A DNA stretch of 64,000 bases from Arbacia lixula (Eukaryota > Echinodermata > Echinoidea > Arbacioida > Arbaciidae), in NCBI GenBank assembly GCA_963669155.1, contig OZ022591.1, positions 20,178,605-20,242,604 of the forward strand. Reading direction: 5' to 3'. Positions within the stretch are counted from its first letter, which is position 1. Each line of letters begins with the position of its first letter. This document shows positions 737-43,362 of the stretch, piece by piece. Made by a program: the position numbers and the translations under genes. The notes beneath the pieces are model-generated. The model worked only from the letters and a program-made list of their open reading frames with translations, did no database searches and was not told where the DNA came from.

Positions 737-1189
<453 letters not shown>

Positions 1190-1220
1190 TCACAAATAAA
1201 CCGCCAGCAAATGCGGTGCG

Positions 1221-1281
1221 TATTTATATCACTCGAGGGGATTGAGGGGGAGGCACCGCACTGTTGTGATTGGACAATTGG
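1221..1281 (-). promoter_or_regulatory. H3 promoter elements, unit 1
   Basis: Minus strand TATAAATA at 1221-1228, about 75-80 bp upstream of the H3 ATG, and two CCAAT boxes at 1269-1273 and 1277-1281. The same set recurs at 10276-10336. Confidence 0.8.
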
Positions 1282-4894: not shown

Positions 4895-5470
4895 TTACTT
4901 CTTAGCTGCCTTCTTGGTTGTTTTAGCTTTGGGCTTTGCAGTCTTGGGCTTCGGAGCTGTCGTCTTCTTTGCCGTCTTCTTGGGCGTTGCTTTCTTGGCT
5001 GCCGGTGTCTTCTTCTTGGGTGTCTTCTTCTTCTTCTCAGCTGCCTTCTTGACTGGTTTCTTGACCTTCTTTGCTGCTGTCTTGGTTTTCTTGGCAACCG
5101 CTGCTGCCTTCTTCTTCTCCTTCGCAGCCGCCGCTTTTGCCTTGGACTTCTCTCGCAATGCTTTGGCTTTCTCCTTCTCCTTCTTGGCCTTATCCGCTGC
5201 CTCCGCCTTTGCCGCCTTGCTGTTTAACTTGAATGAACCAGCTGCACCCTTCCCGCTGGTCTGCAGTAGCTTGCCACTCACTACCCCGAGTTTCAAGGCC
5301 TTCTTGATGTGGGGAGTCTGGCGGTCGATGTCCAATGTGTAGTTGGCTGCGATGTACTTCTTAATAGCTTGCAAAGACGAGCCCTTTTTGTCTTTGAGAT
5401 TGGTGATGGCAGCAACTACCATATCCGCCGCGCGGGGGTGGGTGGGAGCCTTCTTCTTCTGATCAGCCAT
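4895..5470 (-). CDS. H1: Linker histone H1, copy 1
   Basis: Linker histone of 191 codons. A short N tail leads to a winged-helix globular domain at about residues 10-82 ([33 protein letters not shown]), followed by a Lys/Ala/Pro-rich C-terminal tail with KK-TPKK and AAKK-type repeats. It binds linker DNA at the nucleosome dyad. Start at 5470, stop TAA at 4895-4897. TATATA at 5504-5509 is upstream. It differs from unit 2: Lys26 here is Thr26 there, and unit 2 has two extra residues (EK) in the tail near residue 100. Confidence 0.97.
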
Positions 5471-8562: not shown

Positions 8563-8578
8563 GGCCCTGATAAGGGCC
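8563..8578 (-). terminator. Histone H2A mRNA 3' stem-loop
   Basis: Minus strand GGCCCTTATCAGGGCC, a GGCCC-stem histone stem-loop, followed by ACCACCTCATCAGAAAAAGAA. Confidence 0.93.
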
Positions 8579-8608: not shown

Positions 8609-9226
<618 letters not shown>

Positions 9227-9730
9227 TCATGTCGTATGTTTAATCTTGCACTTGTCAACACGAGCACAAAATTCCAAACATAGCTAGGAATTTGACGCAT
9301 TACACATAAACATAGTCATATGGACACGTATGTGGGTATAAACATTCATATTATGTACATGTATATATAGAGCTAGTTAATGATATTCATTCAACAAAAT
9401 TGTCCATGGATATTTTAAAAGATTTATGTATTTATATACAGGACTACTGTGTTTTGTCTGTTCTTAATGGCGACGCATATTACGCCAGTATCAGTATGAT
9501 ATGATAACACATGCCATATAGGACTCTATTTATCATATGGCGAGAAATGAAATATATAGAATCGAATTCAATGTTGTTTTTCTTGAATGTCATTATAGAT
9601 TCATTGGTGGCTTCTACTTGAATATTTACATCGGTATCGGTTTGAATGTCGCTCCTGATTTACCCTTTTGTCGTTGATGCTTGTATTATTGAAATCATAC
9701 TACATTTTCATTCTTTTGTAAGTTTTTGGT

Positions 9731-9791: not shown

Positions 9792-10244
<453 letters not shown>

Positions 10245-10946
10245 TCACAAATAAACCGCCAGCAAATGCGGTGCGTATTTATATCACTCGAGGGGATTGA
10301 GGGGGAGGCACCGCACTGTTGTGATTGGACAATTGGGTGGATCTTTTGTTAGCTAGCCGCTCTTCCCTGTCCGACCTAGCCGGATCTCAAAGGAGAGATT
10401 TGCTATATAGAAATATATCAGACTTTTTCTCTGATATTTTCACACTCAATTATTCCTGTATGCAAACAAAGTAATGATAACTCATGAACTTGCCCTGGGT
10501 ATGCCACAGTGGCAAATGAACACAAGCTGAAAATCACAGACAAATGTGTAATATTTTATATAGGGATTTGTCGATTTTGTGATGAGTTTAATAAGACACG
10601 CAATATGAGGCACGGTAGTAGACGCATTAAGAAAACTCTCATATATTGCTAGAATAAAACATCGTGTGCTTCATAAGTTTAATATATTTATAGTACCAGA
10701 ACAGTCATACCCAAAATATATATGCCAGGCTCATTAAGGAATGCCAATGTGTGGGTATTTTCATTGATATGATTTAGATAATAATGATTTAGATAATAAT
10801 CTAATTAATATGATTTAGATAATAATCTAAATTATTATTAGATCTTAGATTATCATTACTTATAATCTGATTATTATTATTATTATTCTTATAATTCGTT
10901 CTTATTATTAATAATATTCTTATTGGATTCTTTCATGAAAATGTGT

Positions 10947-13938: not shown

Positions 13939-14520
13939 TTACTTCTTAGCTGCCTTCTTGGTTGTTTTAGCTTTGGGCTTTGCAGTCTTGGGCTTCGGAG
14001 CTGTCGTCTTCTTTGCCGTCTTCTTGGGCGTTGCTTTCTTGGCTGCCGGTGTCTTCTTCTTGGGTGTCTTCTTCTTCTTCTCAGCTGCCTTCTTGACTGG
14101 TTTCTTGACCTTCTTTGCTGCTGTCTTGGTTTTCTTGGCAACCGCTGCTGCCTTCTTCTTCTCCTTCGCAGCCGCCGCTTTTGCCTTGGACTTCTCTCGC
14201 AATGCTTTGGCTTTCTCCTTCTCCTTTTCCTTCTTGGCCTTATCCGCTGCCTCCGCCTTTGCCGCCTTGCTGTTTAACTTGAATGAACCAGCTGCACCCT
14301 TCCCGCTGGTCTGCAGTAGCTTGCCACTCACTACCCCGAGTTTCAAGGCCTTCTTGATGTGGGGAGTCTGGCGGTCGATGTCCAATGTGTAGTTGGCTGC
14401 GATGTACTTCTTAATAGCTTGCAAAGACGAGCCCTTTTTGTCTGTGAGATTGGTGATGGCAGCAACTACCATATCCGCCGCGCGGGGGTGGGTGGGAGCC
14501 TTCTTCTTCTGATCAGCCAT
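13939..14520 (-). CDS. H1: Linker histone H1, copy 2
   Basis: 193-codon H1. Same globular domain as copy 1 except Thr at residue 26 (NLTDKKGSS versus NLKDKKGSS). The extra 6 bp add EK in the KEKEKEKAK stretch of the tail. These are the only protein differences seen between units 1 and 2; the core histones are invariant, as expected from stronger constraint. Confidence 0.97.
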
Positions 14521-16422: not shown

Positions 16423-16840
16423 ATGTGGGTATAAACATTCAGATTATGTACATGTATATATAGAGCTAGTTAATGATATTCATTCAACTAAATTGTCCAT
16501 GGATATTTTAAACGATTTATGTATTTATATACAGGACTACTGTGTTTTGTTTGTTCTTAATGGCGACGCATATTACGCCAGTATCAGTATATGATAATAC
16601 ATGTCATATAGGACTATATTTATGACATTTGTCATATGGCGAGAAATGAAATATTTAGAATCGAATGCATCGTTCAATGTTGTTTTTCTTGAATGTCATT
16701 ATAGATTCATTGGTTGGTGGCTTCTACTTGAATATTTACATCGGTATCGGTTTGAATGTCGCTCCTGATTTACCCTTTTGTCGTTGATGCTTGTATTATT
16801 GAAATCATACTACATTTTCATTCTTTTGTACGTATTTGGT

Positions 16841-16856
16841 GGCTCTGAAAAGAGCC
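16841..16856 (-). terminator. Histone H3 mRNA 3' stem-loop, unit 3
   Basis: Minus strand GGCTCTTTTCAGAGCC as in the other copies. The sequence just after it differs (ACGT in place of CTTA), but the AAAGAATGAAAA downstream element remains. Confidence 0.94.
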
Positions 16857-16901: not shown

Positions 16902-17354
<453 letters not shown>

Positions 17355-17362
17355 TCACAAAT

Positions 17363-18080
17363 TTGTTTGTTTTGTTTGGGTTTAATGGCGACGCATTCAA
17401 TCTGAATATTTACGCCAGTAACAATATGATATGAAAATATCTTGTGCAAAGCTATGTTCCATCGTATCTCGTCAATCACGAATGAAGGATTCACGAATTC
17501 ATTTGGATTGAACCGGAGCTCATGAATTACGGATCATGATAGAATTAATTCATTTGGATTAAACCGGAGCTACGGAGCTCATGAATGACGAATCACCTCG
17601 ATCGAATGATTGAATGCTAGTCGGAGCTAGTCAATCATATCGATTGAGCTCATTCGGAGGCAATTCGGAGCTAGTCACGAATCGATGGAGCTATGAATCA
17701 ATTGAATCAATTGATTACGGATCAATTCTTTTGGCTCTGAAAAGAGCCGTTGTGTTGGCTTCAAGAATTCATTTGGATTGAACCGGAGCTACGGAGCTCA
17801 TGAATTACGAATCACGATTCAATTAATTCATTTGGATTAAACCGGAGCTACGGAGCTCATGAATTACGAATCACGATTCAATGAATTCATTTGGATTGAA
17901 CCGGAGCTACAGAGCTCATGAATCACGGAGCTATTCTCTCCTTGCGGAGCGGTTTATCACAAATAAACCGCCACGGAGCTATAACGAATTCATTCGATCG
18001 AATGAACGGAGGGTTTATGCGGAGCTATTCTAACGAATTGAATGAATGAATGATTGCGGAGCTCAATCACAAATCACAAA
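17363..18080. other. Patchwork insertion in the H3 5' leader
   Basis: The segment replaces a continuous leader found in the other two H3 copies. It is built of iterated short pieces: five copies of a roughly 59-bp block (GAATTCATTTGGATT.AACCGGAGCT..., starts near 17498, 17549, 17766, 17826, 17884), many CGGAGCT motifs, extra copies of CACAAATAAACCGCC from the H3 leader, a copy of the TGGCGAC...TTACGCC spacer motif, and a copy of the H3 3' end with stem-loop. No reading frame of interest. Confidence 0.85.
17733..17748 (-). terminator. Orphan histone stem-loop inside H3 leader
   Basis: Minus strand GGCTCTTTTCAGAGCC preceded by AGCCAACACAAC, exactly as in the H3 3' UTR, and followed at once by AAAAGAATTG, which resembles a downstream element. 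It lies between the displaced promoter and the H3 start codon, in the same orientation as transcription. Confidence 0.85.
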
Positions 18081-18113
18081 TAAACCGCCAGCAAATGCCA
18101 TGAATGCGGTGCG

Positions 18114-18174
18114 TATTTATATCACTCGAGGGGATTGAGGGGGAGGCACCGCACTGTTGTGATTGGACAACTGG
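18114..18174 (-). promoter_or_regulatory. Displaced H3 promoter, unit 3
   Basis: TATAAATA at 18114-18121, with the CCAAT-bearing block (ATTGGACAA) retained near 18162. One of the two CCAAT boxes is lost: CAATTGGG of the other copies reads CAACTGGG here. Confidence 0.75.
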
Positions 18175-18736: not shown

Positions 18737-19241
18737 ATGGAGGAAAGTGTTTCATTTATGAACATGCCATATTTCATGATCGGGGATGACGCCTTTGCTT
18801 TGCGAACCCACATGATGAAGCCCTACTCGAGAAAGAACCTGAATCGTACAGAGCGGATATACAACTATCGCATAAGTAGAGCCCGAAGAGTCGTGGAAAA
18901 TGCCTTCGGAATACTAGCAGCCAGATTCCAGTGTCTTCTAGGAACACTACAGCAACAACCTGATGTTATGCGTAACATCATAGAAACATGTGTCTGTCTC
19001 CACAACCTGATTGGAATACGGCACCCAGCCATGCACCATGGTCAGCTGGATACAGAGGATACCGACCATAACATCATACCAGGAGAATGGAGGAACATGG
19101 CTCCCATGCATGAAGTACCAACTCCAAGAACTCCAAGAGTTCCGCGACACAGCAGAGGCCAAAGCACAGCGTGAAACCCTTAGACTGTACTTCAACAATC
19201 CCCTTGGAGGAGCAGTTCCTTGGCAGGAGAGGATGATTTGA
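18737..19241 (+). pseudogene. PIF/Harbinger (HARBI1-like, DDE_4) transposase, 3' part
   Basis: The C-terminal part of a PIF/Harbinger DDE transposase. Visible are YFMIGDDAFALRTHMMKPY (second catalytic Asp block), NYRISRARRVVENAFGIL (third block with the catalytic Glu), and, in the +1 frame, ETLRLYFNNPLGG with end VPWQERMI. The first frame runs 18737-19174 and the second 19011-19241; the homology changes frame at about 19080-19130, so one frameshift disables it. The N-terminal half, with the first Asp, is absent: only 267 bp separate it from the histone array. AATAAA lies at 19698-19703. Related proteins include the domesticated HARBI1. Confidence 0.85.
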
Positions 19242-20231: not shown

Positions 20232-22210
20232 CTAATCTTCCTGTGAACATTGCTGGGTCTGCTGCTGCTGGGGCGTCTGAGATGAATCATCCAGGCTTGC
20301 CAAGAAGCTTGTCATACTAAAGTCACTTGACTCCCTAGAACTTCTGCCTGCTGAGAGAGAAGGGGCGCTGGCGGAGCGTGGCTGCATGGTGGTGTAGGAG
20401 GGCGTTGAATGGTCGTTCATCCCAGGTATCACGTTCGCCATGTAGGACTGCTTCATGGAGTGCCAAACGCTGGTGGAAACTGGGTTGGTAGGCCAAAGGT
20501 GTGGTGGGGGCTGCCATCCATCTCCGCAGGGGGGTTGACTGACCCCTGAACTTGTACCAGGTCTTGCTATTGGAGGATCCAAGGGAGGTTGCAGTGATGT
20601 GTGTCGATGCTGCATGAACAGAGAGTCTTGGCGTCTGGTGCTGGCTTCATCTTGTATGTCAAGGAAGAAGTCGCTCAGCAGTCTGTTTGCCTTCCTATAC
20701 AAGTCATCAGGGAGTTGCTGCAGCACCGAACCGACGTAGTTAGTGAACTGCTCACGGTCTGGATGCTGTGACTGGGGCCTGTCAAGTGTACGCAACACCT
20801 GGGCAGAAAGGGCCATCAGCTGCTCGCTGTTTTGCTGGTTCTTGATAAGATGATCCAGAACATCCGTCTCCTGCTGTCTCGGGGACTTTTGTGGTGCCTT
20901 ACCCTTGTTGTACCTGCTGCCCCTGGGGAATGGAGTGCTTTCCTTCCTTGCTCCATCTAAAGACTGCTGATTAGTGGTAGCTTCCTCCTGGTTTTCTGGC
21001 TGGGCTGGCTCTACCTGTCTTTCCACCCCTCGCTCCTGGTCCTCTTCTTCTTCCTCCTCCTCCCGAGGTGCTGGTCCTCTGGCCTCAATACGTTCCTGTA
21101 GCTGAAAAGATACAAAGCAAAGAATGTTTTGAGATGAGGAAATGTTATATAGAGATATAAAGATATAAATCAATGTTAATGTAAAATAATTCAAAATAAT
21201 TTTTTGTTAAATTTCATTCCATTTTTCGTGATATGATGTATTTCACAATTTTTTGGGGTTTTTTTTGTTGTTGTCAAGTATACTTACACTAACTGTGTTC
21301 GTCCTTTGCACAACGTACATGTGAGGGGTGAGGAAGTCAAAAAGCTGCAGCAGGCGCTTGTTGGCATCAGTAAGGACCTCAGCTCCAGATCCACTCTTTT
21401 GTGCTTTCTTCTTTAGCCGTCCAAGCTTTGTCCTCAGACTCTCGTACCACTGTTGCAGCTCCAACCCCGTCTTGTCCATGGCCTGTCCTTGCTGATCCCA
21501 CAGACGTGCTCTGGCCTGGGTGTCCCTCCAGAGGTCTCTTGATTTGTTATACAGGCTATCGTTCTCCTTGAGTAATTCAGCTACCTCCACCATTTCTTCT
21601 CCGGAAAGGACGACAGGAGGCCTCGGGGCCTTACGCCTTTTCTTTGCAGGGGGCTGGGCATTTTCTCCATCAGTGTCCCTGCTTTTTTCTTTCTCATCTT
21701 CATCGTCATCTTCATCTGCAGTAGCAGGAGTAGCAGCTGTGGAGGCAGTGGATGTGGAACCTGCAGTAAAGTTTGTGGCGGTGGTGACGGTGGTGATGGT
21801 GGTGCTAGCAGCAGTGCTGCCTGACCTCACGGTGCCTGATAATTTATAATGGAAAAAACAGCTTTACATGACTTAGGCCTACATAAAACTCCATTCCATC
21901 TAAAAAATTCTTCAAATATTTAGATAAGAATTGATTACAAATATTTCAAAATTACAATTCAATTCATTATAAAAACATATTGACTTGCTTTTCTCACTTT
22001 GATATTCCTAACTCAGCTGTACTTACCAATAACACAAGGAGAGTCGTGTGGCTGAGCAGTGATTGGGGCCTGAATAGGCCTATCCTCCGTCTCTGCATCC
22101 TCAGGAGAAGGCACAGAGGATTCTTCTGCCACTTGAGATTGTTGTGGAGTGTCGGGAGGTCTCTTCTTAGCCTTCTGTCCTCGAACATTTCTGTTTTTTC
22201 TTGGAGCCAT
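20232..22210 (-). CDS. MADF/Myb-SANT-like, BESS-like protein (Harbinger partner), 3 exons
   Basis: Three exons with matching phases: 22210-22027, 21835-21288, 21101-20232. Donors are G|GTAAGT and T|GTAAGT, acceptors ATCAG|G and TTTCAG|C; together they give 533 codons and a stop. Exon 1 is basic (MAPRKNR). Exon 2 has an acidic D/E run, a nuclear-signal-like PAKKRRKAP (about 124-132), then a MADF/Myb-SANT-like helical domain at about 143-210 (ELLKENDSLYNK, LWDQQG, LQQWYESLRTKLGRL). Exon 3 is acidic and Pro/Gln-rich with a BESS-like segment at about 360-396 (FTNYVGSVLQQLPDDLY). Autonomous Harbinger elements encode such a DNA-binding partner that brings transposase to the nucleus and the ends. 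Next to a Harbinger transposase this is the likely role; a domesticated host factor is the alternative. Confidence 0.8.
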
Positions 22211-41399: not shown

Positions 41400-41639
41400 T
41401 ACACTGTAAATTGCAAACAAATGAAGAGAAAATTCTAAGATCTTATTTTAACTCCGAATCTACCCAGTGTCCAATTTATTTATATATTCCAATTCATACA
41501 TTATCTTCAAACCTGTGGATGGACATGGATAATATATTGAGCTCGCACCCACGTGCCCATGTAGTTTATTTTTTTTGTGTGTGTTTAAATGGCGACCCAG
41601 TCAAGATGACTATTTACGCCAATTTCAATATGATATCAC

Positions 41640-43088: not shown

Positions 43089-43362
43089 TACACTGTAAAT
43101 TGCAGACAAATGAAGAGAAAATTCTAACATCTTATCTTAACTCCGAATCTACCAAGTGTCCAATTTATTCATATATTCAAATTTATACATTATCTTCAAA
43201 CATTTGGATGGACATGGATAATATATTGAGCTCGCACCCGCGTGCCCATTTAATTCATTTTGTGTGTGTGTGTGTGTGTTTAAATGGCGACCCAGTCAAG
43301 ATGACTATTTACGCCAATTTCAAAATAATAGTGAATTTATCACAGATTTAAAATGTTTCTCT

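Follow-up and report, generated by a model that had tools for sequence, protein, structure and literature searches.

Stringent LINE/SINE pairs of the UnaL2 and ZfL2 type combine a 3' hairpin, short tail repeats and target-site duplications (TSDs) with a non-autonomous passenger (PMC4176376). Site-specific non-LTR retrotransposons such as R2, SLACS/NeSL, Utopia and Keno occupy a precise position in multicopy or tandemly arranged gene families; SLACS/NeSL target spliced-leader genes, Utopia and Keno target U2 genes, and the sections of the article drawn on here name rRNA, spliced-leader, tRNA and U2 genes, transposons, microsatellites and telomeres as targets, with no mention of histone genes (PMC4640811). 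In 5' transduction by SVA and L1 elements, transcription from an upstream promoter brings host sequence to the 5' end (PMC12593883, PMC13174262), and U6/L1-type chimeras join an element to a different RNA (PMC13174262). Histone RNA can also serve as a template for retroposition, as the retrocopies found by RetroSeeker illustrate (PMC11727581). In the portions of these articles on which we draw, LINE-dependent tails, target-specific elements, 5' transduction and chimeras are each known singly. Within the partial coverage of our literature search, we found no report of a retroposon that occupies core-histone cap sites, accretes 5' sequence serially and carries a captured histone stem-loop.

In this report, we analyze an insertion in the leader of a histone H3 gene of the sea urchin Arbacia lixula, located in a stretch of 64,000 nucleotides (contig OZ022591.1 of assembly GCA_963669155.1, positions 20,178,605 to 20,242,604), hereafter the window. 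We consider a non-autonomous, SINE-like retroposon to be the likely identity of this insertion, namely an element that inserts in sense at core histone transcription start sites and undergoes serial 5' transduction.

With elements of the UnaL2/ZfL2 type the insertion shares a 3' hairpin, tail repeats, TSDs and non-autonomy, as far as these are described in the material cited. However, it shows no Pol III head, its body consists largely of histone mRNA 5' ends, it lands at histone start sites, and the 18 loci searched yielded no partner LINE. In spliced-leader genes, SLACS lies close to the start. Like R2, SLACS/NeSL, Utopia and Keno, as portrayed in the sections considered, the element has a multicopy home and a recurrent position (8/8 readable junctions at +9..+12). 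Its hosts, in contrast, are four different protein-coding sequences, and cap-site position, not sequence, appears to be common to them; moreover, it encodes no endonuclease or reverse transcriptase, there being no ATG-initiated ORF of 90 amino acids within 17363-18071. Whereas the SVA and L1 transductions described in the cited sections are separate, single additions found in part of the insertions, here the additions are repeated, are about 10 nt each and come from core histone cap sites. RetroSeeker retrocopies are histone genes copied elsewhere, but this element is a different entity inside histone leaders.

An insertion in the leader of a terminal H3 gene

All histone genes in the window lie on the minus strand in the sense order H1, H4, H2B, H3, H2A, which we take to be that of sea urchin early histone repeats; together with the H2B sequence, this order points to an echinoderm. 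They form a unit clipped by the window start (H1 at 5470 to H3 at 737, minus), a complete unit (H1 at 14520 to H2A at 8609, minus) and a lone H3 gene (copy 3, 16902-17312, minus) that is terminal in the array. H3 copies 1 and 2 have leaders of about 50 nt. The TATA box starts at -81 in both of these copies and at -809 in copy 3, which bears out an earlier first-pass annotation that had placed it about 80 and about 800 bp from the ATG. That annotation had also proposed that DNA was inserted into the leader, and a 709-bp insertion (17363-18071) indeed separates the TATA box of copy 3 from its ATG. Sense ATTTGTGATT flanks the insertion at both ends (17353-17362 and 18072-18081) and occurs singly in empty H3 leaders. 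The features follow in sense order; "stamp" denotes a short copy of a histone mRNA 5' end.

18114..18121, minus strand: TATA box of the host H3 gene, displaced to -809
18072..18081, minus strand: left TSD, sense ATTTGTGATT, equal to the opening bases of H3 mRNA (empty sites in H3 copies 1 and 2)
17927..18071, minus strand: 5' extension, mainly chained histone mRNA 5' ends (7-mers from leader positions -2..+16 account for 131 of 145 nt)
17761..17926, minus strand: older stamp-derived core 5' of the stem-loop, with 59-bp repeats (stamp 7-mers account for 74 of 165 nt, against at most 58 in controls)
17732..17760, minus strand: 29-nt piece identical to the H3 3' UTR (all three H3 3' UTRs in the window)
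17733..17748, minus strand: histone stem-loop GGCTCTTTTCAGAGCC, exact 16-nt match
17723..17732, minus strand: AAAAGAATTG, with U7-target-like AAAGAA 1 nt past the stem (native 12-15 nt)
17434..17722, minus strand: older core on the 3' side of the stem-loop, likewise rich in stamps (which account for 109 of 298 nt, against at most 61 in controls)
17386..17417, minus strand: 3' terminal hairpin, TGGCG..CGCCA
17363..17385, minus strand: 3' end with CAAA-type tail
17353..17362, minus strand: right TSD
16902..17312, minus strand: host H3, full ORF, A89V (Met = 1)
16841..16856, minus strand: 3' stem-loop of the H3 gene itself
10203..10283, minus strand: leader of H3 copy 2, for empty-site comparison
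1148..1228, minus strand: leader of H3 copy 1, for empty-site comparison

The stamps of the 5' extension, when read by eye, run in the order H3, H2B, H2A, H3, H2B, H4, H2A, H3, H2B, H3, H4, H2B, H2B. The core at 17434..17722 is common to copies on contigs C8, C1 and C22 that have no stem-loop. A tandem repeat of period 59 occupies 17760-17927, and we considered a 59-bp satellite as the identity of the insertion; the repeat accounts for only part of the element. None of the 80-amino-acid ORFs called spans an element copy. At the gathering cut-off, Rfam gives only histone stem-loops in the window, and no Pol III head (tRNA, 5S or 7SL). This result and a body that derives largely from histone leaders speak against a Pol III head.

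The sense, H3-type stem-loop at 17733-17748 that the first-pass annotation recognized is confirmed as exact. Eleven matches to its 16 nt (up to three mismatches) are present in the window, against 0.28 expected and a maximum of 2 in shuffled sequence. Rfam lists nine native histone stem-loops at the gathering cut-off, and 17733-17748 is not among them. The native H2A stem-loop at 8563-8578 is likewise absent from the Rfam list, so this non-listing is not decisive.

The window H3 gene also carries, at 18090-18108, a short extra CATTCATGG-like duplication that lengthens the distance from TATA box to cap site by about 10 nt.

Related insertions in histone arrays

With the window insertion as the query against its own genome (607 Mb), we detected relatives on contigs C19, C37 and C123. 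Partial relatives turned up on C22, C1, C8 and a small number of further contigs. The pattern of stem-loop plus AAAAGAATTG is present at eight places without mismatch (one each on C16, C37 and C123, and five on C19), all of them in histone arrays; a further match, with three mismatches, is on C3. A ninth array copy (C19:241k) is truncated and starts inside the 3' arm of the stem-loop. All four core histone genes serve as hosts, namely H3 (3: the window copy, C19:121k and C19:27k), H2B (4: C19:108k, C19:241k, C37:8k and C123:12k), H2A (1: C19:75k) and H4 (1: C19:26k), and the element is in sense orientation in 9/9 array copies.

All eight readable left junctions fall at +9..+12 of the presumed host transcript, with cap sites derived from the distance to the TATA box: +1 was set 30 nt (H4: 31 nt) past the first TATA base, and the window copy was placed by homology to an empty leader. 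The left side of C19:27k has recombined, and just its right side is kept, at the H3 cap site. C19:75k has lost its final 3' bases; the other seven stem-loop-bearing copies retain the 3' tail. No histone gene is found within 1.5 kb of the dispersed copies on C8, C1 and C22, so targeting is not absolute. We also considered these dispersed copies as histone orphons, a reading that was rejected when tblastn gave no histone in loci L016, L018 and L020.

Several loci show additional arrangements. In locus L008 (C19:25-28k), an element in an H4 leader stands head to tail with a second one that precedes H3, perhaps as a result of ectopic exchange between element copies that deleted the intervening H4 and H2B genes. 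The stem-loop-less copies in L016 (C22, 1845-1960) and L018 (C1, 1845-1955) extend into a common 3' piece, GCCTGACGAAGAC..GTCGAAACGTC, that resembles a hammerhead-ribozyme motif. In the C22 copy, a stretch of H2B leader sits between the tail and this piece, and it looks as if downstream host sequence had been transported too. The members at loci L026, L027 and L024 share the tail, but their repeated body is another one (GGAAACAGGAATTGCCT), interspersed with histone-like stamps; they perhaps represent an older branch that gathered other start sites. Finally, the same 16-nt histone stem-loop, followed by an A run, is found at G000:C3:19943538-19943563 (minus strand) and is possibly a retroposed histone RNA 3' end.

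Retroposon features and recent activity

Three marks of retroposition are seen: TSDs with known empty sites, a variable tail and a paired 3' hairpin. TSDs are 7-13 bp long in the seven copies that have kept both sides; they start at -4 to +3 and span positions within -4..+12. Those read are CATTCGTTATT, AATAGCTCCGTT, CAATAGCTCCGTA, TAGCTCCGCA, AGCTCYG, CATCATTCACCTC and ATTTGTGATT. Homologous recombination via stamps is disfavored as a route of insertion, since the tail abuts the TSD in all seven of these two-sided copies.

At the 3' end, the hairpin is followed by CAAA-type repeats whose number varies among copies; for example, the tails of C19:121k and C19:108k differ although their bodies are identical. 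The hairpin motif is present at 20 places genome-wide (up to three mismatches), eight of them in histone arrays. Across 15 distinct tails, standard pairs fill 96.3% of 135 pair cells; covariation is weak, amounting to one compensatory pair in three related rows. No reverse-transcriptase-like motif was detected in frames of at least 90 codons at the 18 dispersed or tail loci, which are the scope of that search.

Element activity looks recent, given that C19:121k, C19:108k and C19:75k do not differ at any position over 530-579 nt, although their hosts are H3, H2B and H2A, respectively. The 5' end of C19:121k is unlike those of the other two, and gene conversion could be responsible for part of the identity. 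The window copy diverges from other copies by 1.7-6.0%.

Copies C37:8k and C123:12k, both in H2B, have identical elements except for one TSD base, which is A/A in one pair of duplications and T/T in the other. Each TSD base matches its own allele, and L056 holds the A allele without an insertion. Upstream, the flanks show 19 differences in 1031 sites, none of them in the 185 nt that precede the TATA box; downstream, the copies are alike to about 370 nt past the tail, except for the TSD base and one tail base. The A/A and T/T duplications, together with the differing flanks, favor two separate insertions at the same nucleotide, and a conversion tract in which both TSDs were altered is a conceivable alternative.

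Histone mRNA starts chained in the 5' extensions

For five copies, we compared the 5' extensions without their duplications (420 nt in total) with positions -2..+14 of eight native leaders (H2A, H2B, H3 and H4 from C16-type and C19-type arrays), and used 1000 sets of stretches taken elsewhere in the same units as controls. Exact 7-mers cover 285 of the 420 nt (control mean 11.3, maximum 107), with 135 bases left unassigned, and 10-mers cover 169 nt (control maximum 10). All four core histone genes contribute. When the 16-nt reference stretch was slid along the leaders, coverage peaked at the start site (285 at -4, 280 at 0) and was at most 71 at -12 and upstream and 43 at +8 and downstream. 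Coverage also depends on orientation (sense 299, antisense 37, reversed 36), and shuffled extensions gave at most 63. For the window copy, the 5' extension plus 19 adjoining host bases is covered at 144 of 164 nt (mean 7.1 and maximum 44 in 1000 controls).

Matches are concentrated at start sites, without being confined to them. When positions -100..+120 were searched, 26 of 41 maximal matches of at least 8 nt lay wholly within -3..+17, and 15 of 41 lay outside. The C19:27k extension matches H4 at -26..-17 better than any start site, and L005 includes a 15-nt H3 stretch from -18..-4; the stretch -20..0 likewise exceeds the control with 10-mers (15 nt, reached in 0/1000). Elsewhere in the element, stamp coverage is absent from the 29-nt stem-loop piece and amounts to 14 nt in the 71-nt tail part, and the stem-loop-less C8 copy also bears histone stamps. 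The term "patchwork" used in the first-pass annotation is therefore apt as a description, but most of the patches are histone mRNA 5' ends and not random filler.

Two related copies illustrate the order of stamps. The H4-hosted copy in L008 reads TCATTCACCTC joined to CGCAATAGCTCCG. In the H2B-hosted L005, TCATTCACCTCCGCAATAGCTCCG is internal, as serial accretion predicts, and the H4 start ATTCACCTC is joined to the same next bases as in L008, with further stamps (H3 and H2B) upstream of it. Because L005 has about 20 extra nt, L008-1 and L005 are siblings and not parent and child. As in 5' transduction, the stamps are host sequence that begins at an upstream start; the process that placed them is presumed.

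The stem-loop and its spacing

The first-pass annotation had pointed to a motif that could pair with U7. AAAAGAATTG is present at 17723-17732, but it begins directly at the stem. In all element copies read, AAAGAA begins 1 nt after the stem. The window has ten native stem-loops, among them those of H1, H2A, H2B, H3 and H4, and in each of these the motif spacing is 13-15 nt; for native AARGRA at the fetched loci it is 12-15 nt (one stem-loop at a locus end was left unscored). The Rfam U7 model gave no match, and the controls for this model were likewise silent. All eight stem-loop-bearing copies (8/8) continue beyond the stem-loop, so their template RNAs were not cut there. Given the 1-nt spacing and these read-through copies, it is unlikely that the stem-loop is a working 3'-processing signal; rare or abortive cutting may nevertheless take place.

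The stem-loop was probably acquired once, because the eight non-truncated array copies carry it with the same neighbors and the dispersed copies, which match only the 3' part, lack it. The junction directly after the stem fits a switch to an H3 mRNA 3' end. U6/L1-type chimeras, as presented in the sections of PMC13174262 considered here, offer a likely route for such joining; the partner in this instance would be a histone mRNA 3' end. Histone targeting appears to predate the stem-loop, given the stamps 3' of it and in the stem-loop-less C8 copy.

Effects on host genes

Native leaders are 50-75 nt long with zero upstream ATGs. Leaders with a stem-loop-bearing element measure 695-893 nt and have 16-18 upstream ATGs (five measurable leaders; the window H3 leader has 16), and the leader with the truncated element has 524 nt and 11 upstream ATGs. 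The window H3 gene behind the element is probably disabled for protein production. To this extent we agree with the first-pass annotation, which had proposed that the gene is switched off; the long leader with its many upstream ATGs would, however, explain this more simply.

H3 genes behind an element are altered in 3/3 cases and in 5/30 without one (Fisher one-sided p = 0.010), and H2B genes in 2/4 and 2/30 (p = 0.059), in counts that sample part of the histone genes of this genome and include a window copy terminal in its array, where homogenization may be weaker. The H3 changes are A89V in the full-length window gene, T4I and K5* in C19:121k, and T81I in C19:27k. The H2B genes behind elements are partly intact, which tempers the case for silencing, and one of the H2B changes, V96M, is also present in an uninserted gene. 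These counts suggest, short of proof, relaxed constraint on H3 hosts. Broken H3 copies that are uninserted were also encountered (L007 227-637, L049 and L059), with Y42*, a frameshift and truncation.

Proposed mechanism and alternatives

In the mechanism we propose, the element would have no promoter of its own. It would be transcribed from the host histone promoter, starting at the host cap, and its RNA would read across the left TSD and on into the element before being copied whole into the next site. The reverse transcriptase of an unseen LINE would use the 3' hairpin and tail, with priming from a template-strand nick near +1 and a second cut about 10 nt downstream. Each new copy would then bear the first ~10 nt of its previous host as a fresh 5' stamp, and repeated jumps among histone genes would build a chain with the newest stamp at its 5' end. 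The stem-loop would have been gained once, probably through a switch of the reverse transcriptase to the H3 mRNA 3' end, and would have been a passenger since. Histone arrays would thereby provide both promoter and target.

Since what the target stretches have in common is their position, not their sequence, we suggest that the nick is placed by the initiation complex. A more specific version, which we put forward tentatively and would rate somewhat short of even, makes Pol II initiation itself the target: the template strand would be nicked at the cap site of core histone genes that are active, the TSD would correspond to the initiation bubble, the 5' end would act as a ticker tape, and the stem-loop might tie the element RNA to the machinery of histone processing. 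That one family reaches the start sites of protein-coding histone genes whose sequences are unrelated suggests targeting by transcription initiation. Serial accretion would also make the history of the element legible, since stamp order would equal host order; the 5' end would be a time-ordered record of occupied histone genes that reports germ-line start sites. The identical copies in three host genes suggest that the element could be caught moving.

Stamps are about as long as abortive transcripts, and the chain might instead have formed in one or a few events in which a reverse transcriptase kept hopping to short capped histone RNAs, whether abortive or paused. Non-LTR reverse transcriptases do switch templates, and double switches are reported in the sections considered (PMC2104539, PMC13174262). 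We nonetheless regard repeated hopping as improbable: stamp length is close to TSD length, which is what serial accretion would produce; L005 and the copy hosted by H4 have an H4 stamp in common, followed by identical bases; and the older stamps 3' of the stem-loop indicate build-up in several steps. An assembly error, or filler DNA left by faulty end joining, would explain the patchy look of the sequence and is favored by nothing else. It can be rejected almost entirely, given a recurrent family of related insertions in other histone leaders, with their own TSDs, on four contigs, and with an identical core in different hosts.

For the stem-loop, the first-pass annotation had predicted that leader RNA is cut before the coding region, which would switch H3 off and release a non-polyadenylated stem-loop RNA of about 350-400 nt. 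An exact stem-loop with H3 5' context and the changed or stopped H3 genes behind all three elements are what such cutting would lead one to expect. Against these stand the motif at 1 nt instead of 12-15 nt, the eight copies whose templates passed the stem-loop uncut, upstream ATGs that are enough for silencing, the changes in H2B hosts, and the array-end position of the window copy. We accordingly doubt premature 3' processing strongly. It is also rather unlikely, if less far-fetched, that the stem-loop serves the element by being bound by SLBP, which would stabilize or export its RNA, or retain it at the histone locus, and so aid target finding. Consistent with such a use, the stem-loop is in eight of nine array copies, the ninth being truncated inside it, and is absent from the C8, C1 and C22 copies, and the sole stem change seen retains a G-U pair. 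However, conservation has no power as proof of function here, because copies differ by 0-6%; over 16 nt, roughly one change would be expected, which is the number observed, and nothing points to constraint stronger than in the remaining element. The stamps 3' of the stem-loop and in the C8 copy also make histone targeting older than the stem-loop. The single-capture, passenger reading of the stem-loop is the one that we retain within the retroposon model.

Other sequences in and near the window array

Just past the array end lie a DDE_Tnp_4 transposase fragment (18737-19174, plus strand) and an ORF with a MADF domain (21243-21593, minus strand), a pairing that we presume to be that of PIF/Harbinger transposons. 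Remnants of the retroposon 3' end are located downstream of the three H3 genes (395-452, 9450-9507 and 16543-16571, minus strand). Further remnants (41565-41636 and 43259-43341, minus strand) adjoin repeated ORFs at 40.9-44.7 kb that, by eye, are SGNH-hydrolase-like.
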